From Hymenobacter aquaticus (lineage in GTDB: Bacteria > Bacteroidota > Bacteroidia > Cytophagales > Hymenobacteraceae), in the NCBI RefSeq assembly GCF_004765605.1, contig NZ_SRLC01000001.1, forward strand, positions 248,001 to 312,000: DNA of 64,000 nt, given 5' to 3'. Below the pieces are notes generated by a model. That model was not told where the DNA came from and made no database searches. It saw only the letters and a list, made by a program, of their open reading frames with translations. Of the stretch, positions 22,656 through 32,718 are shown piece by piece. A program made the position numbers and the translations under genes. Numbering within the stretch: the stretch's first letter is position 1; the number at the start of each line of letters is the position of its first letter.

Positions 22656-24065
22656 TTACTTCAGCTCCAGCAGCACCACGTTCTCCACGTGGTGGGTATG
22701 CGGGAACATATCCACCGGCCGCACGCGCGTCACCTGATATGCCTCGTCGAGCATCTCCAGGTCCCGGGCCTGGGTGGCGGGGTTGCAGCTGACGTAGACG
22801 ATGCGGGGGGCGCGCATTTCGAGCAGGCGGGCCACCACGTCGGGGTGCATGCCGGCCCGGGGCGGGTCGGTGATGACCACGTCGGGGCGGCCGTGCTTTT
22901 GGATGAACTCGGCGTTGAGTACGTCCTTCATGTCGCCGGCGTAGAACTCGGTGTTGGTCACGCCGTTGATTTCGGAGTTGATATAGGCGTCTTTCACCGC
23001 CGACTCCACGTACTCGACGCCCACCACGTGCCGGGCCTGCCGGGCCACGAAGTTGGCAATGGTGCCGGCCCCGGTGTAGAGGTCGTACACTAGTTCGGAG
23101 CCGGTGAGGCCAGCAAACTCGCGGGTGAGCTTATACAGGTTGTAGGCCCCGTCGGAGTTGGTCTGGTAGAACGACTTAGGCCCCACGCGGAAGCGCAAAT
23201 CCTCCATCTGCTCGTGAATGTGGGGCTCGCCCTTGTAGCAGACCACGTCCAGGTCGTGGAAGGTTTCGTTGCCCTTGTTGTTGAGCACGTAGTTGAGCGA
23301 GGTGATTTCGGGGAACTGCTCCTGCACGAAATCCAGCAGCGGAAACAGGGCCTCGTGGGCGTAATAGCACTGCAGAATCACCATCAGGTCGCCGGTGTTG
23401 GCCGTGCGGATGATGAGGTTGCGCAGGAAGCCTTCCTGGGTCACGAGGTTGTTGAAGGGCAAGTCGTGCTCCAGGGCGTAGTTGCGGATGGCCAGCCGGA
23501 TCTGGTTCGAGGGGTTGGGCTGCAGCCAGCAGTGCTGCACGTCGATGATCTTGTCGAAGCGGGCCGGGGTATGGAAGCCCAGCACCCGCCGCTCGATCTG
23601 CTCGCCGGCCTGAATCTGCTCGTTGGTCAGCCAGCCGTTGTGGCTGAAGGTGTATTCGAGCTTGTTGCGGTAGTATTGCAGGGCCGGAGAGTGCTGAATG
23701 GGCTCCAGCGCGGGCAGCGCTACCTTGCCGATGCGCTGCAGATTATCCTGCACCTGCTGCTGCTTGAACTTGAGCTGGGTGTCGTAGCCCAGGTGCTGCC
23801 ACTTGCAGCCCCCGCAGGTGCCGAAGTGCTGGCAGAAAGGCTCCACGCGCAGGTCGGAGTACTTATGAAACTTGGTGGCTACGGCCTCCAGGAAGGTTTT
23901 CTTGGCCTTGGTCACGCGCAGGTCCACCACGTCGCCGGGGGCTACGCCGGTCACGAAGATGACCAGGTTGTCGCGGCGCACCAGGCACTTGCCCTCGGCC
24001 ACCATGTCGGTAATTTCGACTTCGCGGAGCAGCTCCGCGGGAATGTTTTTAGCTGATTTCCTCAC
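22656..24065 (-). CDS. rlmD: 23S rRNA (uracil-C5)-methyltransferase RlmD-like
   Basis: 469 residues if started at GTG 24065. This is preferred because the -7 element TATCTTTG lies immediately upstream; an in-frame GTG at 24083 would place that element inside the gene. An N-terminal TRAM-like RNA-binding domain (about 10-70) is followed by the iron-sulfur cysteines CQHFGTCGGCKWQ, then the SAM motif LYTGAGTIANF, DPPRAGMHP and the catalytic Cys in YVSCNPATQARDL. Enzymes of this family methylate U1939 or U747 of 23S rRNA, or U54 of tRNA; RlmD is the best guess in Bacteroidota. It heads a cluster with two unknown genes. Confidence 0.88.
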   Translation of the reverse strand: MRKSAKNIPAELLREVEITDMVAEGKCLVRRDNLVIFVTGVAPGDVVDLRVTKAKKTFLEAVATKFHKYSDLRVEPFCQHFGTCGGCKWQHLGYDTQLKFKQQQVQDNLQRIGKVALPALEPIQHSPALQYYRNKLEYTFSHNGWLTNEQIQAGEQIERRVLGFHTPARFDKIIDVQHCWLQPNPSNQIRLAIRNYALEHDLPFNNLVTQEGFLRNLIIRTANTGDLMVILQCYYAHEALFPLLDFVQEQFPEITSLNYVLNNKGNETFHDLDVVCYKGEPHIHEQMEDLRFRVGPKSFYQTNSDGAYNLYKLTREFAGLTGSELVYDLYTGAGTIANFVARQARHVVGVEYVESAVKDAYINSEINGVTNTEFYAGDMKDVLNAEFIQKHGRPDVVITDPPRAGMHPDVVARLLEMRAPRIVYVSCNPATQARDLEMLDEAYQVTRVRPVDMFPHTHHVENVVLLELK

Positions 24066-24070
24066 GGGGG

Positions 24071-24078
24071 CAAAGATA
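24071..24078 (-). promoter_or_regulatory. -7 element of the rlmD cluster
   Basis: Reading on the minus strand, TATCTTTG (followed by C) matches TAnnTTTG and ends 5 bp before GTG 24065. No convincing -33 element was found. Confidence 0.5.
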
Positions 24079-24152
24079 ACCACGGATTCGACGGATTTTT
24101 CGGATCGGCCGGATTTGCGCGGCGTTGGTCTTCAGTGGTAGCCGCGCCACAG

Positions 24153-24236
24153 CTCGCGCGAACGGCGTAGTTCGCGTGCCCCGCGCCGTCAAGGTCGTTC
24201 TGGCCCGCGAACTACACCGTTCACGCTACTATCCTG
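24153..24236. repeat. Imperfect palindrome upstream of rlmD
   Basis: CGCGCGAACGGCGTAGTTCGCG is mirrored with mismatches by CGCGAACTACACCGTTCACGC about 35 bp later. Arms are roughly 22 bp. It belongs to the same class of intergenic long hairpins but has decayed or diverged. Confidence 0.6.
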
Positions 24237-24251
24237 GCCGGCCCTACTTCT

Positions 24252-24313
24252 GTGACATCCTTATGTCACGGGCGTGACATCCTTATGTCACAGGTATGAC
24301 ATCCTTATGTCAC
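24252..24313. promoter_or_regulatory. Threefold 22-bp operator-like array
   Basis: The 16-bp dyad TGACATCCTTATGTCA occurs exactly three times, at 24253, 24275 and 24297, a spacing of 22 bp or about two helical turns. TGACAT and ATGTCA are perfect inverted halves around CCTT. In the first two copies the dyad extends to GTGACAT...ATGTCAC. Spacers differ (GGGC, AGGT), so selection seems to act on the dyads. It lies about 190 bp upstream of rlmD and about 320 bp past the stop of the giant adhesin. A dimeric regulator binding side by side is the simplest reading. Confidence 0.6.
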
Positions 24314-24370
24314 GCGGCAACCATACCAGTGCTTGCCGCGGCAGGCAGCAGTAGGTCCGGGGAAAGTCAC

Positions 24371-24405
24371 GAAAAAAGGCCACCCGGGTAGGGCGGCCTT
24401 TTTTC
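24371..24405. terminator. Rho-independent terminator
   Basis: An 11-bp stem (GAAAAAAGGCC / GGCCTTTTTTC) is closed by a 13-nt loop, with T and A runs inside the stem, and works on either strand. It is the likely terminator of the minus-strand surface-protein transcript. Confidence 0.8.
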
Positions 24406-24430
24406 GTGGCGGTGTGGTCAGCAAGTCACC

Positions 24431-24536
24431 AGAACGTCATGCAGAGCGTAGCGAAGCATCTCGCGTGCTGACGTTGCCAGAGTAAATAATATACCATTGC
24501 ACGCGAGATGCTTCGCTACGCTCTGCATGACGTTCT
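24431..24536. repeat. Perfect 38-bp inverted repeat, family B copy 3
   Basis: Arms 24431-24468 and 24499-24536 are exact complements around a 30-bp loop. It shares AACGTCATG at the ends and CATCTCGCGTGC near the loop with copies 1 and 2, while the middle (CAGAGCGTAGCGAAG) is replaced. It lies 99 bp downstream of the giant adhesin stop. Confidence 0.93.
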
Positions 24537-24635
24537 ATGGACTAACCGGCCACATTGCCTAACTGGAGGAAGTCAGGCGAAGTTGACGCAGGAGGCCGGA
24601 TGCAACACCTCAACATCCGTCTCAGGTCCGTAGGC

Positions 24636-27600
24636 TTATTTAATCACCTCGAACCAGCCCTTGTACGTCTTGCCGGTGCTGAGCGTGAGCAGGTAGTAGT
24701 ATACGCCGGCCGACTGCTGCTCGGCCTTCCAGTCATTGGCGTAGCGGTCCGTTTTGTAGACTTCCTTGCCCCAGCGGTTGTAGAAGCTCATGGTGTAACC
24801 CGAGTACAGGCCGATGTTGCGGATGAAGAAGGCGTCGTTGATGCCGTCGTTGTTGGGCGTCATGATGTTGTAGAACACCAGGTCGTTGGCGAAGTTGACG
24901 CAGGCATCGTTGGAGGAAGCGGTAATGGCCGCCAGCTCACTGTTCACGGCCACTACCCGGAAGCACTGGTCGAAGCCGGCCGAGCTGCTGGGGAAGGATT
25001 GTTCGAGCGTGGTGCCGGGCACGGTGGCCAGCAGCTGGGCCGCGCCGTTGCCGGCGGTACGGAACAGCTGGTATTCCTTCACGTCGAAGCCCTTGTAGGC
25101 GTTCCAGCTCACTTTCACGGTGCCTTCCTGGCGGCCATCCTTGCTGCCTTCCGTAGCCAGGGCCGTGGTCCGGATGGTGGTATGCTCGCGGCTGGCCAGC
25201 GTGGTGCCGCAGTTGTTGAGCAACTCCAGGCGGTAGTCGTAGGCTTTGGCATCAGCATCCACGCCGGTATCGGTGAAGCTGCCGGTGCCCTTGGCTACCG
25301 TGCCGACCTGCGCGAAGGCCGCCGAGGTGCCCGCGTCGCGCCGCAGAATCCGGATCTGGCTGGTATTGGCGGTGGGGTTCACCGTGACCATGCCCAGCGT
25401 GATGCTCCGGTCGCCCGGGGCCACCGAGGCCGCGCGCAGGGCCAGGTCCACGTTGTCGGGCCGCACCGTGAGCGAGGCCAGCGGGCCGGCGCAGCCGAAG
25501 CTGGAAGTCTGGGTGACGCTAATCGTGCGGTCTTCCGCGCCGGGCGTGAAGCTCACCGTAATCGAGCTGCTGCCGTTGCCGCTCAGGATGGTGCCGCCCA
25601 CCACGGTCCAGGCGTAGGTCGCGCCGGGCGCGTTGGGCACCGAGTACTGCTGGGCGCCAAAGCCGGCGGGGCCGGGGCAGATGCTGGCCGGACCCGTAAT
25701 CGTCACGGCCGCCGGCAGCGGGTCGACGGTGAACTGGCGCGACACCACCGGGCCGGCGCAGCCGCTGGCGTTGGTTTCCTGGCTGGTGAGCAGGTAGGGG
25801 CCGGCCGTGGTGGGCGTAAACGTGGCCGAGTTGCCGGTGTTGGCCAGGGGAGCCCCGTTCAGGATAAAGGCGTAAGTAGAGGAGGCCGCGCCCGGCAGGG
25901 CAAAGCTCACTGCCCCGCCCAAACACACCCGGTCGGGACCGGAAATCGTCAGGTTGGCCGCCGGTGAAGGCAGCACCGTCACGCGCAGGGCCTGACTCTG
26001 GCCGAAGCAGGTCACGGGCCCGCCGTTGGGGTTGCTGGTTTCCGTCACGACGATGGTGCCCGTGCCGGGGCCGTTCCACTGCACCACCACCGAGCCGGGC
26101 CCGGTGCTGAGCTGGGTGCCGCCCGTAATCTGCCAGGCGTAGATGGAGCCGGTGGTGGGCGCTACCGAGTAGGTATAGGGGCCGTTGGCCAGGCACACGC
26201 TGGTCGGGCCCTTAGGCGTTTCGGTGGCCAGGCGCTGGTTAATCACCACCGGCAGCGTCACCGGGTCAGAGTCGCACTGGAACTGGTTGCGGGCCACGGC
26301 TTGCACGCTGGCCGTAGCCGAGGCCCCACCCCAGTTCACGGTGATGCTGGCCGTGCCGTTGCCGCTGACGATGGTGCCGCCCGTGACCGTCCAGCGGTAC
26401 TCGGTGCTGCGCGGGTTCACGATGCGGTAGACCACGCCCTCGATGGTGGGGCACACCGACTGGGCTCCCTGAATGTTGTCGGCGGGGGCCTGCGGATTGA
26501 CCGTGACGCGTACCGTATCCGTTACCGGGCAGTTCCAGGGGGCTACGGCCTGCACCACAAACGTGAAGGTCTGGGGGGCGGTAACGGCCGGGGCGGTGAA
26601 GACCGGCTGCGCCGCCGTCGGGTCGTTCAGGCCCGTGGCCGGGCTCCACTGGTAGCCATAGCCGCCGCGCGCCGGAGTCGCGCCGAGGCGCACCGTCTTG
26701 CCGGCGCAAAGGGTAGCATCGGGGCCGGCTTCGGCCACCGTTTGCGGGTATACGCTCACCCGAACGGTACTAGTGGCCGAGCAGCCCTGCACGTTGGTCA
26801 CGGTTAGCGTGTAAGTCAACTCTACTGAGCCGCCCTGGTTGGCCAGCTGAAACACCGGCTGGGCTATGGTTGGGTCGCTCAGGTTGGTAGCCGGGCTCCA
26901 CTGGTAGGTGTAGCCGGCCACGGCCGGAGTGCCCAGTACGGATGCTTCGTTGGAACAAAGCTGCCGACCTTGCCCGGCATCGGCCACGGCCGCCGGGTTC
27001 ACCTTAACCGTCACGGTTTTGGTATCCACACAGGTCTGGTTGGTCGTGACGCGCAGGGTGTAGGTTACGGTGGTTGGCGTGGTGCCGGTGTTGGTCAGCG
27101 TCACGGTGGGCGCTACGGCCGTGGGGTCGCTCAGGCCGGTAGCCGGGCTCCAGAGGTAAGAGCTGCCGGCCACGGCCGAGGCCGGGTTACCCAGCACGGC
27201 CGAGCCGCCCGAGCAAATGGTTTTGTTGGTGCCCGGATCGGCCACGGCCGCCGGGTTCAGCGTCACGACTACCGCGCTAGTGGCGGTGCAGCCTTCGGGC
27301 GTGGTGGCCGTGAGGGTGTAGGTGAACAGCAGGGGCGTGGTGCCGGTATTGGTTTGCAGGAACGTGGGTTGGGCTACCGTAGTGCTGCTCAACCCCACGG
27401 CCGGGCTCCACTGGTAGGTATATCCCGTCAGGGCCGCCGAGCCCAGGGTTTTAGCCTCGCCCGAGCAGGTGAAAACGTCCCGGCCCGCATCGGCCACGGC
27501 GGCGGGGTTCACCTTTACCTGGACCGTCTGGGTATCCTCGCAGCCCCGGTCGGTTGTCACGCGCAGGGTGTAGGTAGTCGTAATCGGGGCCGACGTGGTG

Positions 27601-30395
27601 TTGGTCAGCGTCACGGTGGGCGTGGCCACCGCCGTGCTGCTCAGGCCGGTAGCGGGGCTCCAGAGGTAAGAGCTGCCGGCCACTACCGAGGCCGGGTTGC
27701 CCAGCACGGCCGAGCCGCCCGAGCAAAAGGCCTTATTCGTGCCGGCATCAGCCACGGCGGCCGGATTCAGGGTGACAAGCACGACATCGGTAGCGGTGCA
27801 GCCCTCAAGCGTGGTGGCCGTGACGGTGTACGTGAACTGCTGGGGCGTCGTGCCGGTGTTGGTTAGCAGGAAGGTGGGCTGGGCCACGTTCGTGCTGCTC
27901 AGCCCCGTGGCCGGGCTCCACTGGTAGGAGTAGCCCGCCAAAGCCGTTGAGCCCAGGGTTTTAGCCTCGCCCGAGCAGGTGAAAACGTCCCGGCCCGCAT
28001 CGGCAAGAGCCGCCGGATTCACCTTCACGTCGACGCCGGCGCTAGTGGCGCAAACCCCGTTTGTGGTCACCGTGAGCGTGTAGCGCACGACCAGCGGGGC
28101 AGTACCGGTGTTGGTCAGCGTGACGGTGGGCGTGGCGGCTGTGGGGTCGCTCAGGCCGGTAGCCGGGCTCCAGAGGTAGGTGCGGCCCGCCAAGCCGTCG
28201 GCCGGGGTGCCGATGGTCGTTGAGCCGCCCGAGCAGATGGTTTTGCCGGTGCCCGCATCAGCCACGGCGGCCGGGTTGAGGGTGACAAGTACGACATCGG
28301 TGGCCGTGCAGCCCTGGGCCGTGGTGGCCGTGACGGTGTAGGTAAACTGCTGGGATGCGGTGCCGGTATTGGTTTGCAAAAAGGTGGGCTGCGCTACCGT
28401 CGCGCTGCTCAGGCCCGTGGCCGGACTCCACTGGTACGTGTAGCCGCTCAGGGCCGCCGAGCCCAAGGGTTTAGCCTCGCCCGAGCAGGTGGTTACGTCG
28501 GTGCCGGCATCGGCCACGGCCGCCGGGTTGACGGTGATGGTAACCTGGCGCGAAGTCGTGCACACGCCGTCGGTGCTGGTCACGGTGTAGGTCGTGGTCT
28601 GGGTCGGCGACACGGTGATGGTGGGCCCGGTGAAGCTTTGGTTGCCGCCGGTCCAGGTGTAGGCCCCGGCCCCGCTGGCCGTGAGCGTCGTGGAGCCTCC
28701 GGCGCAGATCGTGGCGCTGGTGGGCGTTACGGCCAGGCTGCTGGCGGGGCGTATTTCAATGTCGCGGCTGACCGAATCAGAGGGGCAGCCCAGACCCGAC
28801 ACGCCCTGGAGCGTGAGGCGGCCGGTGCCGGGGGCATTCCAGCGCACCTGCACCGTGGCCCCGGAGTTGGCACCCTGAATGGCGCCGCCCTTCACCTTCC
28901 ACAGGTAGCTGCTCGGCGTGGGCCCCGTGGCCGAGTAGGAATATAGCTGGGTCTGGTCGCAGATAACCGGCGTGCCGGTGATGCCCGACGGCCCGGCCGC
29001 GCGGTTCACCCGAATCTGGAAGATGTCCGACACGCTCTTGGCTCCGCAGGTTTGGTCGGTGGCCGTTACCACCACGTCGTAGAGGGTGCTGCGGGCGTTG
29101 CCGCACCGCGAGCTGAAGCTGAACTGCCCGCTGACGTTGCCGCCGGTGCCGGTCAGCGTGACGGTGCCGGTGGGGCCGCTCACGGTGCCCTGGTCGCCGC
29201 CGAAGCTGGCGTTGAACGGACCCGCCCCGTCGAGCAGCACGCTGTTTACTTTCAGGCTGATGGCGTTGCCGTCGGGGTCGGTGGCGGCCAGGTTGAAGTT
29301 CAGGGTTTCGCCTTCCTCAATGGTAAAGGTCTTGTTGGCCAGCGTGCCGGCCGTAAACTGCGGGGCGCGGTTGGGCTGGCACTGCCGCGACACGAGCTGG
29401 ATTTCGCGCCTAGTCGAGCCAATCAGGACCTCGTTGCCGTTTATTTTCCGGAATTCCTTGACTTCCACGGCCACCACGTAGCGCCCCTGCTGGGAGGTGG
29501 CGTATTTGCTCAGGCCGTTGCTGGCGTTCAAAAAGGCGTAGTTGCCCACGCCCGGCCCAAAGGGCGCGGTGGCCGAGTAGCCCGGGATATACGTCACGCT
29601 GGGCGGGGGCGGGGTAAAGGCTGTGGGCGGCGGGCCGCCCACGGCCCCGGCAATGTTGTAGGGAGTGCTGAAGGAATAAATCAGCCGGTCCCCGTCGGCG
29701 TCCACGGCGTTGTTCACCACGATGCTCGTGTCGCCCTGGCAGATTACCACCACAGCCGTATCCGAGAAAGTCGGGGAGGAGTTGGGCAGCAGCGGCGGGG
29801 CCATGTCCACGAAGATGGTCTGGTTCTGGTTGTCGGGCTGCAGCAGGTTGTTGATGGAGCGGTTGCGCGTGCCGTCGGTATACACCACGTAGTAGCCGTC
29901 GAACGACACGGGCAGGTTCACGATGGCCTCGTAGCGGCACAGGCGCACGGGCGGGGGTGGGCCGCCGGGCAAAGTGCAGCCCCCGGGCAGGGGCGGCGTA
30001 ATGGAGGGGTTGGCCACCCGCGGCAGCCGGTAGGAGCCCTGGGGCTGGCTGTCGTTCTGCGAGGGCCGGCCCGAGCAGCTGACCTGGGCGCAGCTGAAGT
30101 TCTGGGCCGCCTGCCCGCTGTTGAGGCGGGTGCCGTTCTGCTTGTTGTAGATGTTGACGAAGATGTTGCAGCGCCCGTCCGGCACGTTCGACACATCCGT
30201 GGGGTTGGTGCATTCCCAGTTGATGTAGAGCAGCACCGTGATGCGGTAGCGGAAGGGCGTGGCCGCCGGGCCGTTGGCATCGAGGTAGGTGTAGTTCATT
30301 TCGCCGCCTACCAGGTGGGATGCGGTGGCCGGGGCCGCCCGCAGGCCAATCAGCAGGGCCAGAAGCCAGAAGCTGCGCAGTAGAGTTTTGTGCAT
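24636..30395 (-). CDS. Giant secreted surface protein with tandem Ig/PKD-like repeats and a CHU_C (T9SS type B) C-terminus
   Basis: 1919 residues from ATG 30395, where a signal peptide begins (HKTLLRSFWLLALLIGL, cleavage near ATA-SHL). An N-terminal module (SHLVGGEMNYTYLD) common in Cytophagales adhesins is followed by cadherin/Ig-like segments. Eight tandem roughly 85-residue repeats come next (about 625-1220; core YQWSPATGLS, ending VNPAAVADAG), then several PKD/Ig-like domains (WTVTGGTIVSGNG, WTVVGGTILSGNG). The last about 85 residues are the gliding-motility-associated CHU_C domain (MTPNNDGINDAFFIRN, FYNRWGKEVYK, GVYYYLL), the type B T9SS sorting signal. A large adhesin or gliding-related cell-surface protein is inferred. 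It follows the GEVED/PKD protein by about 90 bp on the same strand. Confidence 0.9.
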   Translation of the reverse strand: MHKTLLRSFWLLALLIGLRAAPATASHLVGGEMNYTYLDANGPAATPFRYRITVLLYINWECTNPTDVSNVPDGRCNIFVNIYNKQNGTRLNSGQAAQNFSCAQVSCSGRPSQNDSQPQGSYRLPRVANPSITPPLPGGCTLPGGPPPPVRLCRYEAIVNLPVSFDGYYVVYTDGTRNRSINNLLQPDNQNQTIFVDMAPPLLPNSSPTFSDTAVVVICQGDTSIVVNNAVDADGDRLIYSFSTPYNIAGAVGGPPPTAFTPPPPSVTYIPGYSATAPFGPGVGNYAFLNASNGLSKYATSQQGRYVVAVEVKEFRKINGNEVLIGSTRREIQLVSRQCQPNRAPQFTAGTLANKTFTIEEGETLNFNLAATDPDGNAISLKVNSVLLDGAGPFNASFGGDQGTVSGPTGTVTLTGTGGNVSGQFSFSSRCGNARSTLYDVVVTATDQTCGAKSVSDIFQIRVNRAAGPSGITGTPVICDQTQLYSYSATGPTPSSYLWKVKGGAIQGANSGATVQVRWNAPGTGRLTLQGVSGLGCPSDSVSRDIEIRPASSLAVTPTSATICAGGSTTLTASGAGAYTWTGGNQSFTGPTITVSPTQTTTYTVTSTDGVCTTSRQVTITVNPAAVADAGTDVTTCSGEAKPLGSAALSGYTYQWSPATGLSSATVAQPTFLQTNTGTASQQFTYTVTATTAQGCTATDVVLVTLNPAAVADAGTGKTICSGGSTTIGTPADGLAGRTYLWSPATGLSDPTAATPTVTLTNTGTAPLVVRYTLTVTTNGVCATSAGVDVKVNPAALADAGRDVFTCSGEAKTLGSTALAGYSYQWSPATGLSSTNVAQPTFLLTNTGTTPQQFTYTVTATTLEGCTATDVVLVTLNPAAVADAGTNKAFCSGGSAVLGNPASVVAGSSYLWSPATGLSSTAVATPTVTLTNTTSAPITTTYTLRVTTDRGCEDTQTVQVKVNPAAVADAGRDVFTCSGEAKTLGSAALTGYTYQWSPAVGLSSTTVAQPTFLQTNTGTTPLLFTYTLTATTPEGCTATSAVVVTLNPAAVADPGTNKTICSGGSAVLGNPASAVAGSSYLWSPATGLSDPTAVAPTVTLTNTGTTPTTVTYTLRVTTNQTCVDTKTVTVKVNPAAVADAGQGRQLCSNEASVLGTPAVAGYTYQWSPATNLSDPTIAQPVFQLANQGGSVELTYTLTVTNVQGCSATSTVRVSVYPQTVAEAGPDATLCAGKTVRLGATPARGGYGYQWSPATGLNDPTAAQPVFTAPAVTAPQTFTFVVQAVAPWNCPVTDTVRVTVNPQAPADNIQGAQSVCPTIEGVVYRIVNPRSTEYRWTVTGGTIVSGNGTASITVNWGGASATASVQAVARNQFQCDSDPVTLPVVINQRLATETPKGPTSVCLANGPYTYSVAPTTGSIYAWQITGGTQLSTGPGSVVVQWNGPGTGTIVVTETSNPNGGPVTCFGQSQALRVTVLPSPAANLTISGPDRVCLGGAVSFALPGAASSTYAFILNGAPLANTGNSATFTPTTAGPYLLTSQETNASGCAGPVVSRQFTVDPLPAAVTITGPASICPGPAGFGAQQYSVPNAPGATYAWTVVGGTILSGNGSSSITVSFTPGAEDRTISVTQTSSFGCAGPLASLTVRPDNVDLALRAASVAPGDRSITLGMVTVNPTANTSQIRILRRDAGTSAAFAQVGTVAKGTGSFTDTGVDADAKAYDYRLELLNNCGTTLASREHTTIRTTALATEGSKDGRQEGTVKVSWNAYKGFDVKEYQLFRTAGNGAAQLLATVPGTTLEQSFPSSSAGFDQCFRVVAVNSELAAITASSNDACVNFANDLVFYNIMTPNNDGINDAFFIRNIGLYSGYTMSFYNRWGKEVYKTDRYANDWKAEQQSAGVYYYLLTLSTGKTYKGWFEVIK

Positions 30396-30421
30396 ATAGG
30401 GGTCGGTAAGAAAAAGGCCTA

Positions 30422-30442
30422 GCCCGCTACGTTGCAGCGGGC
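30422..30442. repeat. Short hairpin between the two surface-protein genes
   Basis: A GCCCGCT / AGCGGGC stem with a 7-nt loop lies between the GEVED-protein stop and the giant-protein start. No T run follows in the minus direction, so it may be a processing or stabilising hairpin rather than a terminator. Confidence 0.4.
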
Positions 30443-30486
30443 CAGCCAGGCGTGTGTGGTGGTAAAGCGGGAAAGAAAAGGCCGGA

Positions 30487-32718
30487 CTAGTCGCGCTCCA
30501 CGCGCCGGATGGCCGTCTGGCCGGCGGCATCCGTCAGCCGGAGCACGTACAGGCCCCGGGGCAGCGCCGCCAGGTCTAGGGTGGCCTCCGTGGTGGAACT
30601 CAGGCGCAGGGTGGTGGTGCGCAACTCGGCGCCCAGCACGTTGAGCACCGCTACGGTGTAGGTGCCGGCCGCCGCGGCGTCGGCCAGGCGCAGGTGCACC
30701 AGGCCCGCCGTGGGGTTCGGAAACAGGCTCAGGGAGGGCAGCTGCCGAGCCTCGGCGGTGCTGTTTACCAGGTCAATGCGCACCGAGTAGTCTTCTGTTT
30801 CGGCGTTGGCCTGGTTTTGCACGCAGGCCTGCGCCTGGTTGGCGTTGGCCCGCATCACGATGCGCATCCGGGTAAAGCCCAGCGCGGCGGCCGTGTTCGG
30901 AATGGTAAAGACGTTGGCGGAATTGATGTTGGACGTGCCGTTGACCAGCAGCTCACTGGCGTCGAAGGTGCCGTTGCGGTTCACGTCCAGCCACATCGAG
31001 GTGGTGCGCTGAAAGCTCAGGTTGGCCGTGGTGCTCAGCGTGTACGACTGTCCCTGACGCAGATTAATGGTCTGGCTGACGTAGTTGCCGTAGCCCCCGG
31101 CATCGGCGCCAGACGGGTTGGCAAACGACACCGTAGGCCCCGTCACCGACGTTACGCCCACGTTCGTAAGCCACACGTTGTTGTTCAGGCCGTTGGAGGC
31201 GCAGTAGGTCAGGCAGGGCACCGAAACGGTCAGGTAGTTGGCCCGGGTCACGGTGTTGGTGCCGAAGGCGTTGGTGGCCGTCAGCGTCACGGCATAAGTG
31301 CCCGAGGCTGTGTACTGGTGCGAGGGGTTCTGCTGGGTGCTGGTCGTGTTGTCGCCGAAGTTCCACAGCCAGGAAGTCGGGGCGTTCTGGCTCTGGTCGG
31401 TAAACTGCACCGGGTTCACGCAGCTGGTGGGCACGTAGCTGGAGGTGAAGGCCGCCACTGGCGGGTTGGTATTGGGCCGCACCGTCACGGTGTAGTCTTC
31501 GGCCTGGCCCAGCTGGGGCGGGGCGCAGGGCCCGGCCGGGGCACCCACGTAATCGGAGATGACGCGCAGGCGCAGGGGCTGGTTTTTCACGGCCGTGGCC
31601 GGAATCAGCACGGTGCCCGTGGGGTTGGTGCGGTTCAGGGCCGTAAAGAGCAGTTCGTTGGCGCCGAAGCTGCCGTCGTTGTTCAGATCCAGCCACACGC
31701 GCGTATCCTGCGGGTTGCTGGGCCCCGTCGTCACGCTGACCGCGTAGGAGTTGCCCTCGGTCAGGTCCACGCGGCTGGCGCAGGTAAAGTCTTCGTAGCC
31801 GGCCTGGCCGTTGGCGGAAGCCTTGCTCAGGCTGCCCAGGGCAAACTGCGTGATGCCGTAGCCGCAGCAGTAGGCCGTGGTGGCCGGCGTGCAGCTGGCC
31901 GCTACCGGTACCGCCGCGTTGTAGGTCACGTAGTTCGTGCGGGTGCGGGTGCTGGTGCCCGCCGCGTTGGTGGCCGTCAGCGTCACGGTGTAGGTGCCGG
32001 CCGTGGCGTAGCAGTGGCTGGGGCTTTGCAGGTTACTGGTGGTGTTGTCGCCGAAATTCCACAGCCAGGTGGTGGGCGAGTTCTGGGTCTGGTCGGTAAA
32101 CTGCACGCAACCCGAGCAGGTCAGCGTCTGGTCGGCCACAAACTCGGCCACCGGCGCCACCGAGCTGACGGCCGCCGTCACGGCGTAGTCTTCCGTCTGC
32201 GAATACTGCGGGGCCGAGCACGGGGTCGGAATGGGGGAGTTGCTGTAGTCGGCGGCCACGCGCATACGCAGGCGGGTGCCGATGGTGGTGCCCACGGGCA
32301 GGCGCACCGTGCCGGTATGCACTTTCTTGGCGTCCGAGCTGAACACCAACTCGGTGGTGGCGTTGAGCGCGCCGTCGTTGTTGAGGTCAATCCAGACCCG
32401 CACGTTTTCGTTCGTGTTGGTGTTGGTGCGCACCGTAATAGGGTAGTCGGCCCCCACGTTCAGCAGGGTGCCGCCGGAGCAGGAGTAGTCGCGGTAGCCA
32501 TCCTGCACGCCCGCCGTCGTGTTGTTGATGGTGCCCAGCGTCACGTTCAGGATTCCCATTCCGAAGGGGTAGCTGCTGCTCGGGGCCGAGCCCGGCGTGC
32601 AGGCCGAGGTGGCCGCGGGGCACTGCGCCTGCGCCCGGCCGCCACTCAGCGCCAGAACCATTGCCAAAGAACACTGAAAAACCGGCGCCCAGCGCCGCAC
32701 GCGTAGAGGTTGCATCAT
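30487..32718 (-). CDS. Secreted GEVED/PKD-domain protein with T9SS type A sorting domain
   Basis: 743 residues from ATG 32718 (tandem ATG at 32715). The signal peptide ends at GGRAQA-QCP. Three GEVED-type domains are marked by VWIDLNNDGALN, VWLDLNNDGSFG and MWLDVNRNGTFD, interleaved with two PKD domains (WLWNFGDNTTS twice, each followed by GTYTVTLTATNA-type strands). The C-terminal LSLFPNPTAGLVHLRL and LPRGLYVLRLTD are the Por secretion type A signal. Proteins of this design are exported by T9SS and bind or degrade polymers; no catalytic domain is seen here, so a binding or structural role is inferred. The last Arg-rich residues (AIRRVERD) are usual for this signal. Confidence 0.9.
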   Translation of the reverse strand: MMQPLRVRRWAPVFQCSLAMVLALSGGRAQAQCPAATSACTPGSAPSSSYPFGMGILNVTLGTINNTTAGVQDGYRDYSCSGGTLLNVGADYPITVRTNTNTNENVRVWIDLNNDGALNATTELVFSSDAKKVHTGTVRLPVGTTIGTRLRMRVAADYSNSPIPTPCSAPQYSQTEDYAVTAAVSSVAPVAEFVADQTLTCSGCVQFTDQTQNSPTTWLWNFGDNTTSNLQSPSHCYATAGTYTVTLTATNAAGTSTRTRTNYVTYNAAVPVAASCTPATTAYCCGYGITQFALGSLSKASANGQAGYEDFTCASRVDLTEGNSYAVSVTTGPSNPQDTRVWLDLNNDGSFGANELLFTALNRTNPTGTVLIPATAVKNQPLRLRVISDYVGAPAGPCAPPQLGQAEDYTVTVRPNTNPPVAAFTSSYVPTSCVNPVQFTDQSQNAPTSWLWNFGDNTTSTQQNPSHQYTASGTYAVTLTATNAFGTNTVTRANYLTVSVPCLTYCASNGLNNNVWLTNVGVTSVTGPTVSFANPSGADAGGYGNYVSQTINLRQGQSYTLSTTANLSFQRTTSMWLDVNRNGTFDASELLVNGTSNINSANVFTIPNTAAALGFTRMRIVMRANANQAQACVQNQANAETEDYSVRIDLVNSTAEARQLPSLSLFPNPTAGLVHLRLADAAAAGTYTVAVLNVLGAELRTTTLRLSSTTEATLDLAALPRGLYVLRLTDAAGQTAIRRVERD

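Follow-up and report, generated by a model that had tools for sequence, protein, structure and literature searches.

Among described systems, the REP/REPIN-RAYT elements resemble the repeats reported here in being short intergenic palindromes, often in inverted pairs, with one copy located by a gene for a DNA-binding or DNA-processing protein, as set out in passages of two papers (PMC3733652, PMC6006769). Passages of the former put most REP families at 20–100 and up to thousands of units and describe CGTC-type REPs that have no dedicated transposase (PMC3733652). The Hymenobacter arrays differ from these elements in being few, in having a fixed 21–22-bp period, in keeping their positions between species and in being associated with an HU-type protein instead of a transposase. 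The parS/ParB and matS/MatP systems offer a second parallel, with few dispersed sites, one of them beside or tied to the gene for the binder; here, however, the protein is of the HU superfamily, the sites are multi-dyad arrays of lineage-specific sequence and binding is a prediction. Plasmid iteron and parC-type arrays likewise have tandem sites at whole helical turns (11/22 bp), but the arrays described below are chromosomal, lie at several loci and have no replication or partition gene beside those examined.

HU proteins are mostly weakly sequence-specific and are the textbook low-specificity DNA packers. To our knowledge, HU-HIG proteins have been assigned by homology, their targets being unknown, and we know of no cognate DNA array for the family. 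The clades of the HU superfamily in Bacteroidetes have reportedly been compared in one study. The sole relevant passage that we found is an annotation table entry for HU-HIG in PMC11035120, and a search of the open-access literature found no paper on Hymenobacter 22-bp arrays.

Here we describe an array of three dyads located upstream of rlmD in Hymenobacter aquaticus. We tentatively propose, as something possible though short of probable, that it is a member of a set of low-copy, position-conserved 22-bp dyad arrays that would serve as cognate sites of a patchily distributed HU-HIG (PF18291) protein.

The window array and the rlmD slot

In the window (the whole stretch of 64,000 nucleotides that was analysed), the array lies in the slot between a surface-protein gene and rlmD, with the following features:

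22656–24083, minus strand: ORF of rlmD, 23S rRNA uracil-1939 methyltransferase (TIGR00479, 327 bits)
24071–24078, minus strand: TATCTTTG promoter-like box, identified by eye
24252–24269, no strand: dyad unit 1, GTGACAT-CCTT-ATGTCAC
24270–24273, no strand: 4-nt linker GGGC
24274–24291, no strand: dyad unit 2, GTGACAT-CCTT-ATGTCAC
24292–24295, no strand: 4-nt linker AGGT
24296–24313, no strand: dyad unit 3, ATGACAT-CCTT-ATGTCAC
24368–24408, no strand: terminator-like hairpin between surface gene and array, T runs on both strands
24636–30530, minus strand: large gene for a T9SS type B surface protein, its 3' end bounding the slot (TIGR04131, 37.4 bits, cut-off 35)

The 16-mer TGACATCCTTATGTCA occurs at 24253–24268, 24275–24290 and 24297–24312, at spacings of 22 and 22 bp and with the spacers CGGGCG and CAGGTA between the copies. 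This confirms the original prediction of three dyads at exact 22-bp phasing (24252–24313) that stay alike whilst their spacers vary, in a geometry that suits repeated protein binding, the dyads being in helical phase. The full dyad is 18 bp long (GTGACAT, CCTT, ATGTCAC), longer than the 16-mer, the first letter of unit 3 being A. The array is built of 7-nt arms in alternating orientation, with 4-nt centres between them and a period of 11/22.

Searches of the 64 kb single out this place. TRF gave a single 22-bp array at the dyads (score 105), no other exact 16-mer was present in three equally spaced copies (spacing 17–60 bp), and the array was the sole place returned by a scan for triple 18-mers (up to four mismatches, direct or inverted, periods 18–40); five dinucleotide shuffles of the window gave no triple 18-mer array at periods 20–24. 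The single-dyad pattern with up to two mismatches has three matches in the window against 0.63 expected, so that the weight rests on identity and spacing rather than on the number of single dyads. In the 5.5-Mb genome as a whole, TGACATN4ATGTCA occurs in the window array only (control 0).

The array stretch folds well as RNA (z −4.5 on the plus strand and −3.6 on the minus strand), as is expected of any array so built. A known RNA family was rejected, with no Rfam match at the gathering score: there were six sub-threshold matches, of which only Thr_leader lay over the array, at 24.1 bits against a gathering score of 55.

Read along the minus strand, the order is surface-gene stop, an inverted repeat with 61-nt arms (24408–24559), the hairpin (24368–24408), the array, a further inverted repeat (24156–24226), the TATCTTTG box and rlmD, whose true start is probably the GTG at 24065. 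Seen from the surface gene, the array is past the terminator-like hairpin, which was absent among the matches of a simple terminator scan, and it lies 175–234 bp upstream of the box. We take the box to be of the Bacteroidetes −7 motif TAnnTTTG kind; a sigma-70 promoter scan gave no match. Both the order and a TAnnTTTG-type box are kept at array-less rlmD orthologues, as in genomes G051 (slot of 85 bp), G020 (184 bp) and G039 (127 bp).

Other repeats are found around the slot. The 61-nt arms contain CGTCATGCAGAGCGTAGCGAAGCATCTCGCGTG, are REP/BIME-like and give sub-threshold Rfam AaHKsRNA41 matches, whilst the inverted repeat at 24156–24226, with GTAGTTCGCG arms, is seen again next to arrays at the rlmD slots of G013, G014 and G015 and at the HU slot of G015. 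By eye, many relatives show AATCCG words every ~10–11 bp ahead of the rlmD box and their reverse complement after the surface gene, and the interior of the surface-protein gene (window 27129–28430) has about five copies of a 258-bp repeat.

The HU-HIG gene and its home array

Another array of the same genome (G000) lies directly past the stop of a ~145-codon gene that belongs to the HU-HIG family (PF18291, 106.2 bits against a cut-off of 26.2; TIGR01201 HU_rel, 77.2 against 68.6), at G000:C1:1720743-1721273 on the minus strand, its product beginning MPIEYSL. The earlier statement that no regulator gene is nearby is correct locally, but this candidate partner is present 1.45 Mb off on the same contig. 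No relative with a solved structure was found by sequence.

HU-HIG was found in 16 of 120 genomes of the genus at E ≤ 1e-30; these are referred to as HU+ and the others as HU−, a limit under which weaker HU-HIG homologues are scored as HU−. Behind the gene, all 16 have a home array of three to about five units of 21–22 bp: 14 were detected with up to four mismatches (12 at period 22 and two at period 21), 15 with up to five, and that of G065, with mixed 21/22 spacing, was read by eye. Strain CRA2 (L112) provides a 17th case, of the GACAT class. The home array starts between −20 and +24 nt of the HU-HIG stop in 14 of the 16, the exceptions being G015, where it is 136 nt off with another repeat element between, and G065, which the scan did not place. 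A GC-rich hairpin of at least 11 pairs follows 3' of the array in 13 genomes; G015, G036 and G046 have only 7–9 pairs.

The arms of the home arrays are lineage-specific:

GACAT-like: G000, G014, G015, G059, G005, G001, G003
AACTCAT/ATGAGTT: G099
AAAATCC/GGATTTT: G036
AAACCC/GGGTTT: G044
CTCTTCCGCAACAG-like: G021, G095
CATCAGGAGG: G065
CATCGGGACC: G066
CGACGGGAC-like: G013, G046

A tree of the HU-HIG proteins places the seven GACAT-class proteins together with that of G065 on one side of a branch (support 0.976) and the other classes opposite, an agreement that may be plain linkage since gene and array are adjacent.

HU-HIG and its array sit between a MocA-like gene, recognised in G000 from a profile match under the cut-off (TIGR03310, 114 bits) and in the other genomes from a short motif, and an Atg22-like gene. 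This allowed a search for empty sites in the 1500 bp upstream of the Atg22-like gene in 29 genomes, 25 HU− and four HU+. None of the 25 HU− flanks had the HU-HIG motif or a 21/22-bp array in those 1500 bp, at a limit of up to five mismatches that was adopted after a tighter scan had missed the known G021 array and that gives 15 of 16 HU slots and 0 of 25 HU− flanks. The tail of the MocA-like gene was visible in 20 of the HU− flanks, within ~300 nt in 19 and ~1.1 kb away in G051. In the HU+ genomes, HU-HIG was inside the stretch in G015 and G021 and just outside it in G036 and G046. With gene and array both missing from the HU− flanks, HU-HIG and its home array come and go together.

The locus is also a hotspot for PtuA/PtuB, the Septu / retron type I-A effector pair. 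A PtuA start, recognised as a motif by eye, lies behind HU-HIG and array at nine of the 16 loci, the G099 copy looking broken, and PADLOC profiles matched three PtuA and one PtuB (L090:2522-4003, L093:4007-6325, L099:4055-5527).

Related arrays in Hymenobacter genomes

Arrays of the class found in the window, here termed alpha (GACATN4ATGTC-N8-GACATN4ATGTC, with up to two mismatches in the two-unit pattern), occur in 10 of the 120 genomes, against none for a reversed-pattern control. G000 has four, at C1:272254, C1:1720674, C3:63116 and C2:1140776, the window array among them. Across 390 order-level genomes with one mismatch allowed there were six matches, five in the genus itself and one in a second genus of the same family. 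When named species were scanned exactly, the pattern appeared in Hymenobacter aerophilus, H. psychrotolerans, H. guriensis and strain CRA2, and also in a Prevotella MAG and on three contigs of a single Bacteroidales MAG, where the arrays look unrelated. In the latter MAG, RGIG6215 (L114, L115, L116), a repeat with TGACATTCGAATGTCA at 22 bp is dispersed over three contigs, with common flanks, and looks unrelated too. Viral contigs gave no exact match to the pattern, on which ground a viral origin was ruled out.

An all-against-all comparison of the genes around the arrays identified loci shared between species:

Locus I (rlmD slot): G000, G014, G015, G046
Locus II (behind HU-HIG): G000, G014, G015, G003, G001, G059, CRA2
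Locus III: G000, G015
Locus IV: G000, G015
Loci V and VI: G030, G092
Locus VII: G014, G015

The expectation that such arrays recur in other Hymenobacter was therefore borne out, and at conserved intergenic places. As for the suggestion of a small repeat family, a low-copy, position-conserved family does exist, but its best partner candidate is the HU-HIG gene elsewhere. Flanking genes typed by Pfam have no common theme: they include TonB/carboxypeptidase-regulatory and DUF2807, M3 peptidase and RecQ, PfkB and aminotransferase, DUF3822 and NUDIX, RNase D-like and isocitrate lyase, LytTR regulator and histidine kinase, and two genes without a match. Six arrays (L090, L091, L095, L100, L101, L102) start 2–32 nt past the stop of a long ORF; others are ~70–330 nt from the nearest ORF end, the ORFs having been chosen by length only.

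Across 77 units the core GACAT/ATGTC is nearly fixed and two outer pairs change jointly (GT..AC, CG..CG, AA..TT), their positions being paired in 69 and 57 units. Because the rows are related, the figures for 39 distinct dimers (41 less two duplicates) are not probabilities: pairing in the monomer hairpin is 92.5% of cells against 82.1 after shuffling, with covariation of 0.290 against 0.106 (0 of 500 shuffles as high), and for the long hairpin formed by two units the values are 86.9% and 0.334. Pairs changed on both sides were not in excess (5 vs 4.2 and 10 vs 8.3). In 16 of the 39 pairs one centre is the exact reverse complement of its neighbour (2.7 on average after shuffling, with none of 2000 shuffles as high), and AGT or AGG or the complement is present in 69 of 78 centres, as against 32 of the 256 possible words. 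With three direct rather than inverted CCTT centres, the window array is atypical. Between the arrays of relatives, arms are conserved or compensated whilst the 4-nt centres change, often to the neighbour's reverse complement. The identity of the dyads thus applies to the 16-mer of the window and not to the family, in which centres and outer pairs vary and covary.

Alpha arrays are present in eight of 16 HU+ genomes and two of 104 HU− genomes, G030 and G092 (Fisher 6e-7 only if the genomes are independent, an assumption that makes such values too optimistic). Perfect alpha pairs outside the HU slot were found in five of the seven genomes with an alpha-class HU slot, in none of nine with another class and in two of 104 without HU-HIG. 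The arrays are not confined to HU-HIG genomes and the association is a tendency only: in G030 and G092 the alpha arrays are intact, yet PF18291 gives no strong HU-HIG there, only a 36-bit match such as ordinary HU gives too.

The rlmD slots were examined in 67 of 117 genomes with a match, 20 of the 67 being hand-picked and six of those HU+. The surface-gene motif retained 39 of the 67, among which G002 (slot of 1209 bp) may be a false call; outside the 12 HU+ slots are G001, G065 and G095, without synteny, and G003, without an rlmD match. Where synteny is kept, a 22-bp array or an intact GACATN4ATGTC unit is present in six of 12 HU+ slots vs none of 27 HU− slots. Any 21- or 22-bp array is present in 11 of 12 vs two of 27, but this wider count may concern something else, since in five of the 11 the repeats are direct, 21 bp long and unrelated in sequence. 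All six slot arrays (22-bp or alpha) fall in one clade, of which G039, without HU-HIG, has an array-free slot. On the 67-row RlmD tree, HU-HIG has a scattered distribution that takes at least 12 changes, a number as low being reached in 56 of 500 shuffles. Tree-aware pairs for any 21/22-bp slot array came to ~6:0 (median p 0.03) and were not significant for 22-bp arrays alone (3:0) or alpha (~4:0.1).

Some array classes match between slots. In G036 the lineage-specific 18-mer AAAATCCCGGCGGATTTT is found at both the HU slot and the unlinked rlmD slot, and beta-class matches with E < 0.02 occur only in the HU+ genomes G013, G015 and G021; G016, with no HU-HIG, has a 30-nt beta-like match at E 0.027. 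Other classes are mixed: G013 and G015 have a beta array at the rlmD slot and HU slots of other classes, with one strong HU-HIG each, G046 and G036 have alpha arrays with altered arms though their HU class is not alpha, and the G014 rlmD slot has single units resembling two further classes. Such off-class arrays and units may be relics of earlier HU-HIG alleles. Several strong HU-HIG paralogues in one genome were rejected as the cause on examining eight genomes with the PF18291 profile, which gave one match of ~100 bits each in G000, G013, G014, G015, G046 and G059 and none in G030 and G092; each of the eight has one extra match of 35–37 bits, taken as ordinary HU.

A background of 1.6 Mb away from known arrays (G000, G036, G015, G020 and G110, the G036 sample leaving out two pieces with the HU locus and alpha array) gave only two period-22 matches, both direct and non-inverted. 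Away from HU-HIG, 21-bp arrays with inverted units were found at G000:C1:518339 and once in HU-less G020. Direct 21-bp repeat loci numbered ~6 in 1.0 Mb of HU+ sequence (G000, G036, G015) vs one in 0.6 Mb of HU− sequence (G020, G110), after simple TTG-type repeats had been dropped by eye and neighbouring matches merged. In the G000, G036 and G015 samples, 21 (with 42) is one of the most frequent periods, which does not hold for the G020 and G110 samples; intergenic 21-bp tandem repeats of unrelated sequence are seen at G000:C1:354526, 383745, 479016 and 518339 and in the rlmD slots of G021, G059, G099, G005, G066, G115 and G068.

Possible roles of the arrays

If the arrays are HU-HIG sites, each would be a series of 7-nt half-sites, one per 11 bp and alternating in orientation, on which dimers could load side by side on one face of the helix. 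Besides the home array, the protein would have three more targets in the intergenic DNA of its own genome, one of them in the slot between rlmD and the terminator of the surface-protein gene. At such sites HU-HIG might locally bend or structure the chromosome, in a boundary, partition-like or autoregulatory role, and would not be expected to switch rlmD. This proposal draws on the home arrays behind all 16 HU-HIG genes and that of CRA2, the empty HU− flanks, the association of alpha and rlmD-slot arrays with the gene, the G036 18-mer, the beta matches and the 6:0 tree-aware pairs. It is weakened by the G030 and G092 arrays, the mixed classes, the non-significant tree tests for 22-bp and alpha arrays, the restriction of the six rlmD-slot arrays to one clade, the G016 match, the inverted 21-bp arrays away from HU-HIG or in G020 and the weak sequence specificity of most HU proteins. 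Hitchhiking of a repeat with the gene could also account for the adjacency.

Another reading is that the arrays are hairpin-forming non-coding repeats of the REP/REPIN type, copied round the genome, with HU-HIG the mere host or passenger of one copy. Palindromic units, adjacent centres that are reverse complements like head-to-head REP dimers, the same arms at unlinked loci and a centre that looks inverted (AGTA/TACT) when the orthologous arrays of G030 and G092 are compared all speak for this. We nevertheless think it unlikely, as it is weakened by copy number (four arrays in the own genome, counting the alpha class only), by orthologous positions across species and by missing transposases: no Y1 match (PF01797, E ≤ 0.001) was found in the array-bearing G014, G030 and G046, and none of 30 fetched Y1 loci had an array. 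A repeat driven by Y1 transposase was rejected on these results, which exclude only the GTAG type, given that CGTC-type REPs manage without one; by eye, no constant tag of the GTAG or CGTC kind was seen beside the units. Functionless quasi-palindromes that duplicate and invert by template switching would explain centres copied both inverted and direct, as well as the intergenic 21-bp tandem repeats that other sequences form in the genus, direct ones and some inverted ones. Such a mutational by-product is a decidedly improbable source, however, for arms conserved over species whilst centres change, or for arrays at 16 of 16 HU slots against two direct period-22 matches in the background.

Position relative to genes bears on two further readings. 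As an RNA element at 3' ends, the array would be transcribed past the stop, its hairpins protecting or terminating the mRNA and its sequence drifting whilst pairing stays. The home arrays at stop codons, 13 of 16 with a strong hairpin behind, the six other arrays 2–32 nt past stops, the fold z scores and the compensatory pairs are consistent with this, but the rlmD-slot array is beyond a terminator-like hairpin, no Rfam family reaches its gathering score and mere structure needs no identical arms at unlinked loci of one genome. An RNA role past stop codons is thus possible for the home array and less so at rlmD; as an explanation of the arrays it appears improbable to us. That the dyads are an operator for rlmD, or for the surface gene, through a dimeric regulator is most unlikely. 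The 22-bp phasing and the shared slot in G000, G014, G015 and G046 would fit, yet the array is 175–234 bp upstream of a box that array-less relatives keep, related arrays lie beside unrelated genes, and six arrays and 14 of 16 home arrays are at stop codons. The suggested link to rlmD or to promoters is likewise not supported.

Returning to HU-HIG, a broader version of the proposal, which we consider rather unlikely, is that gene and home array between the MocA-like and Atg22-like genes, often followed by the PtuA/PtuB anti-phage pair, form a self-contained accessory module inserted at this place. An HU-fold sequence-specific binder would then co-evolve with its own 22-bp arrays, marking or structuring several chromosome sites and possibly sensing or excluding foreign DNA. 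A lineage-varying, gene-linked array with copies elsewhere gives the HU-HIG family a concrete predicted target, and the 17 protein/site pairs make a natural series for questions of specificity, partition, autoregulation or defence. In a genus with intergenic DNA otherwise full of repeats, the arrays also offer a non-coding family that keeps its positions.

Lone TGACATN4ATGTCA dyads with TA...TA flanks are found in other Hymenobacter (L005, L009, L013, L014, L018, L021); these may be a genuine operator for a different regulator, separate from the arrays.
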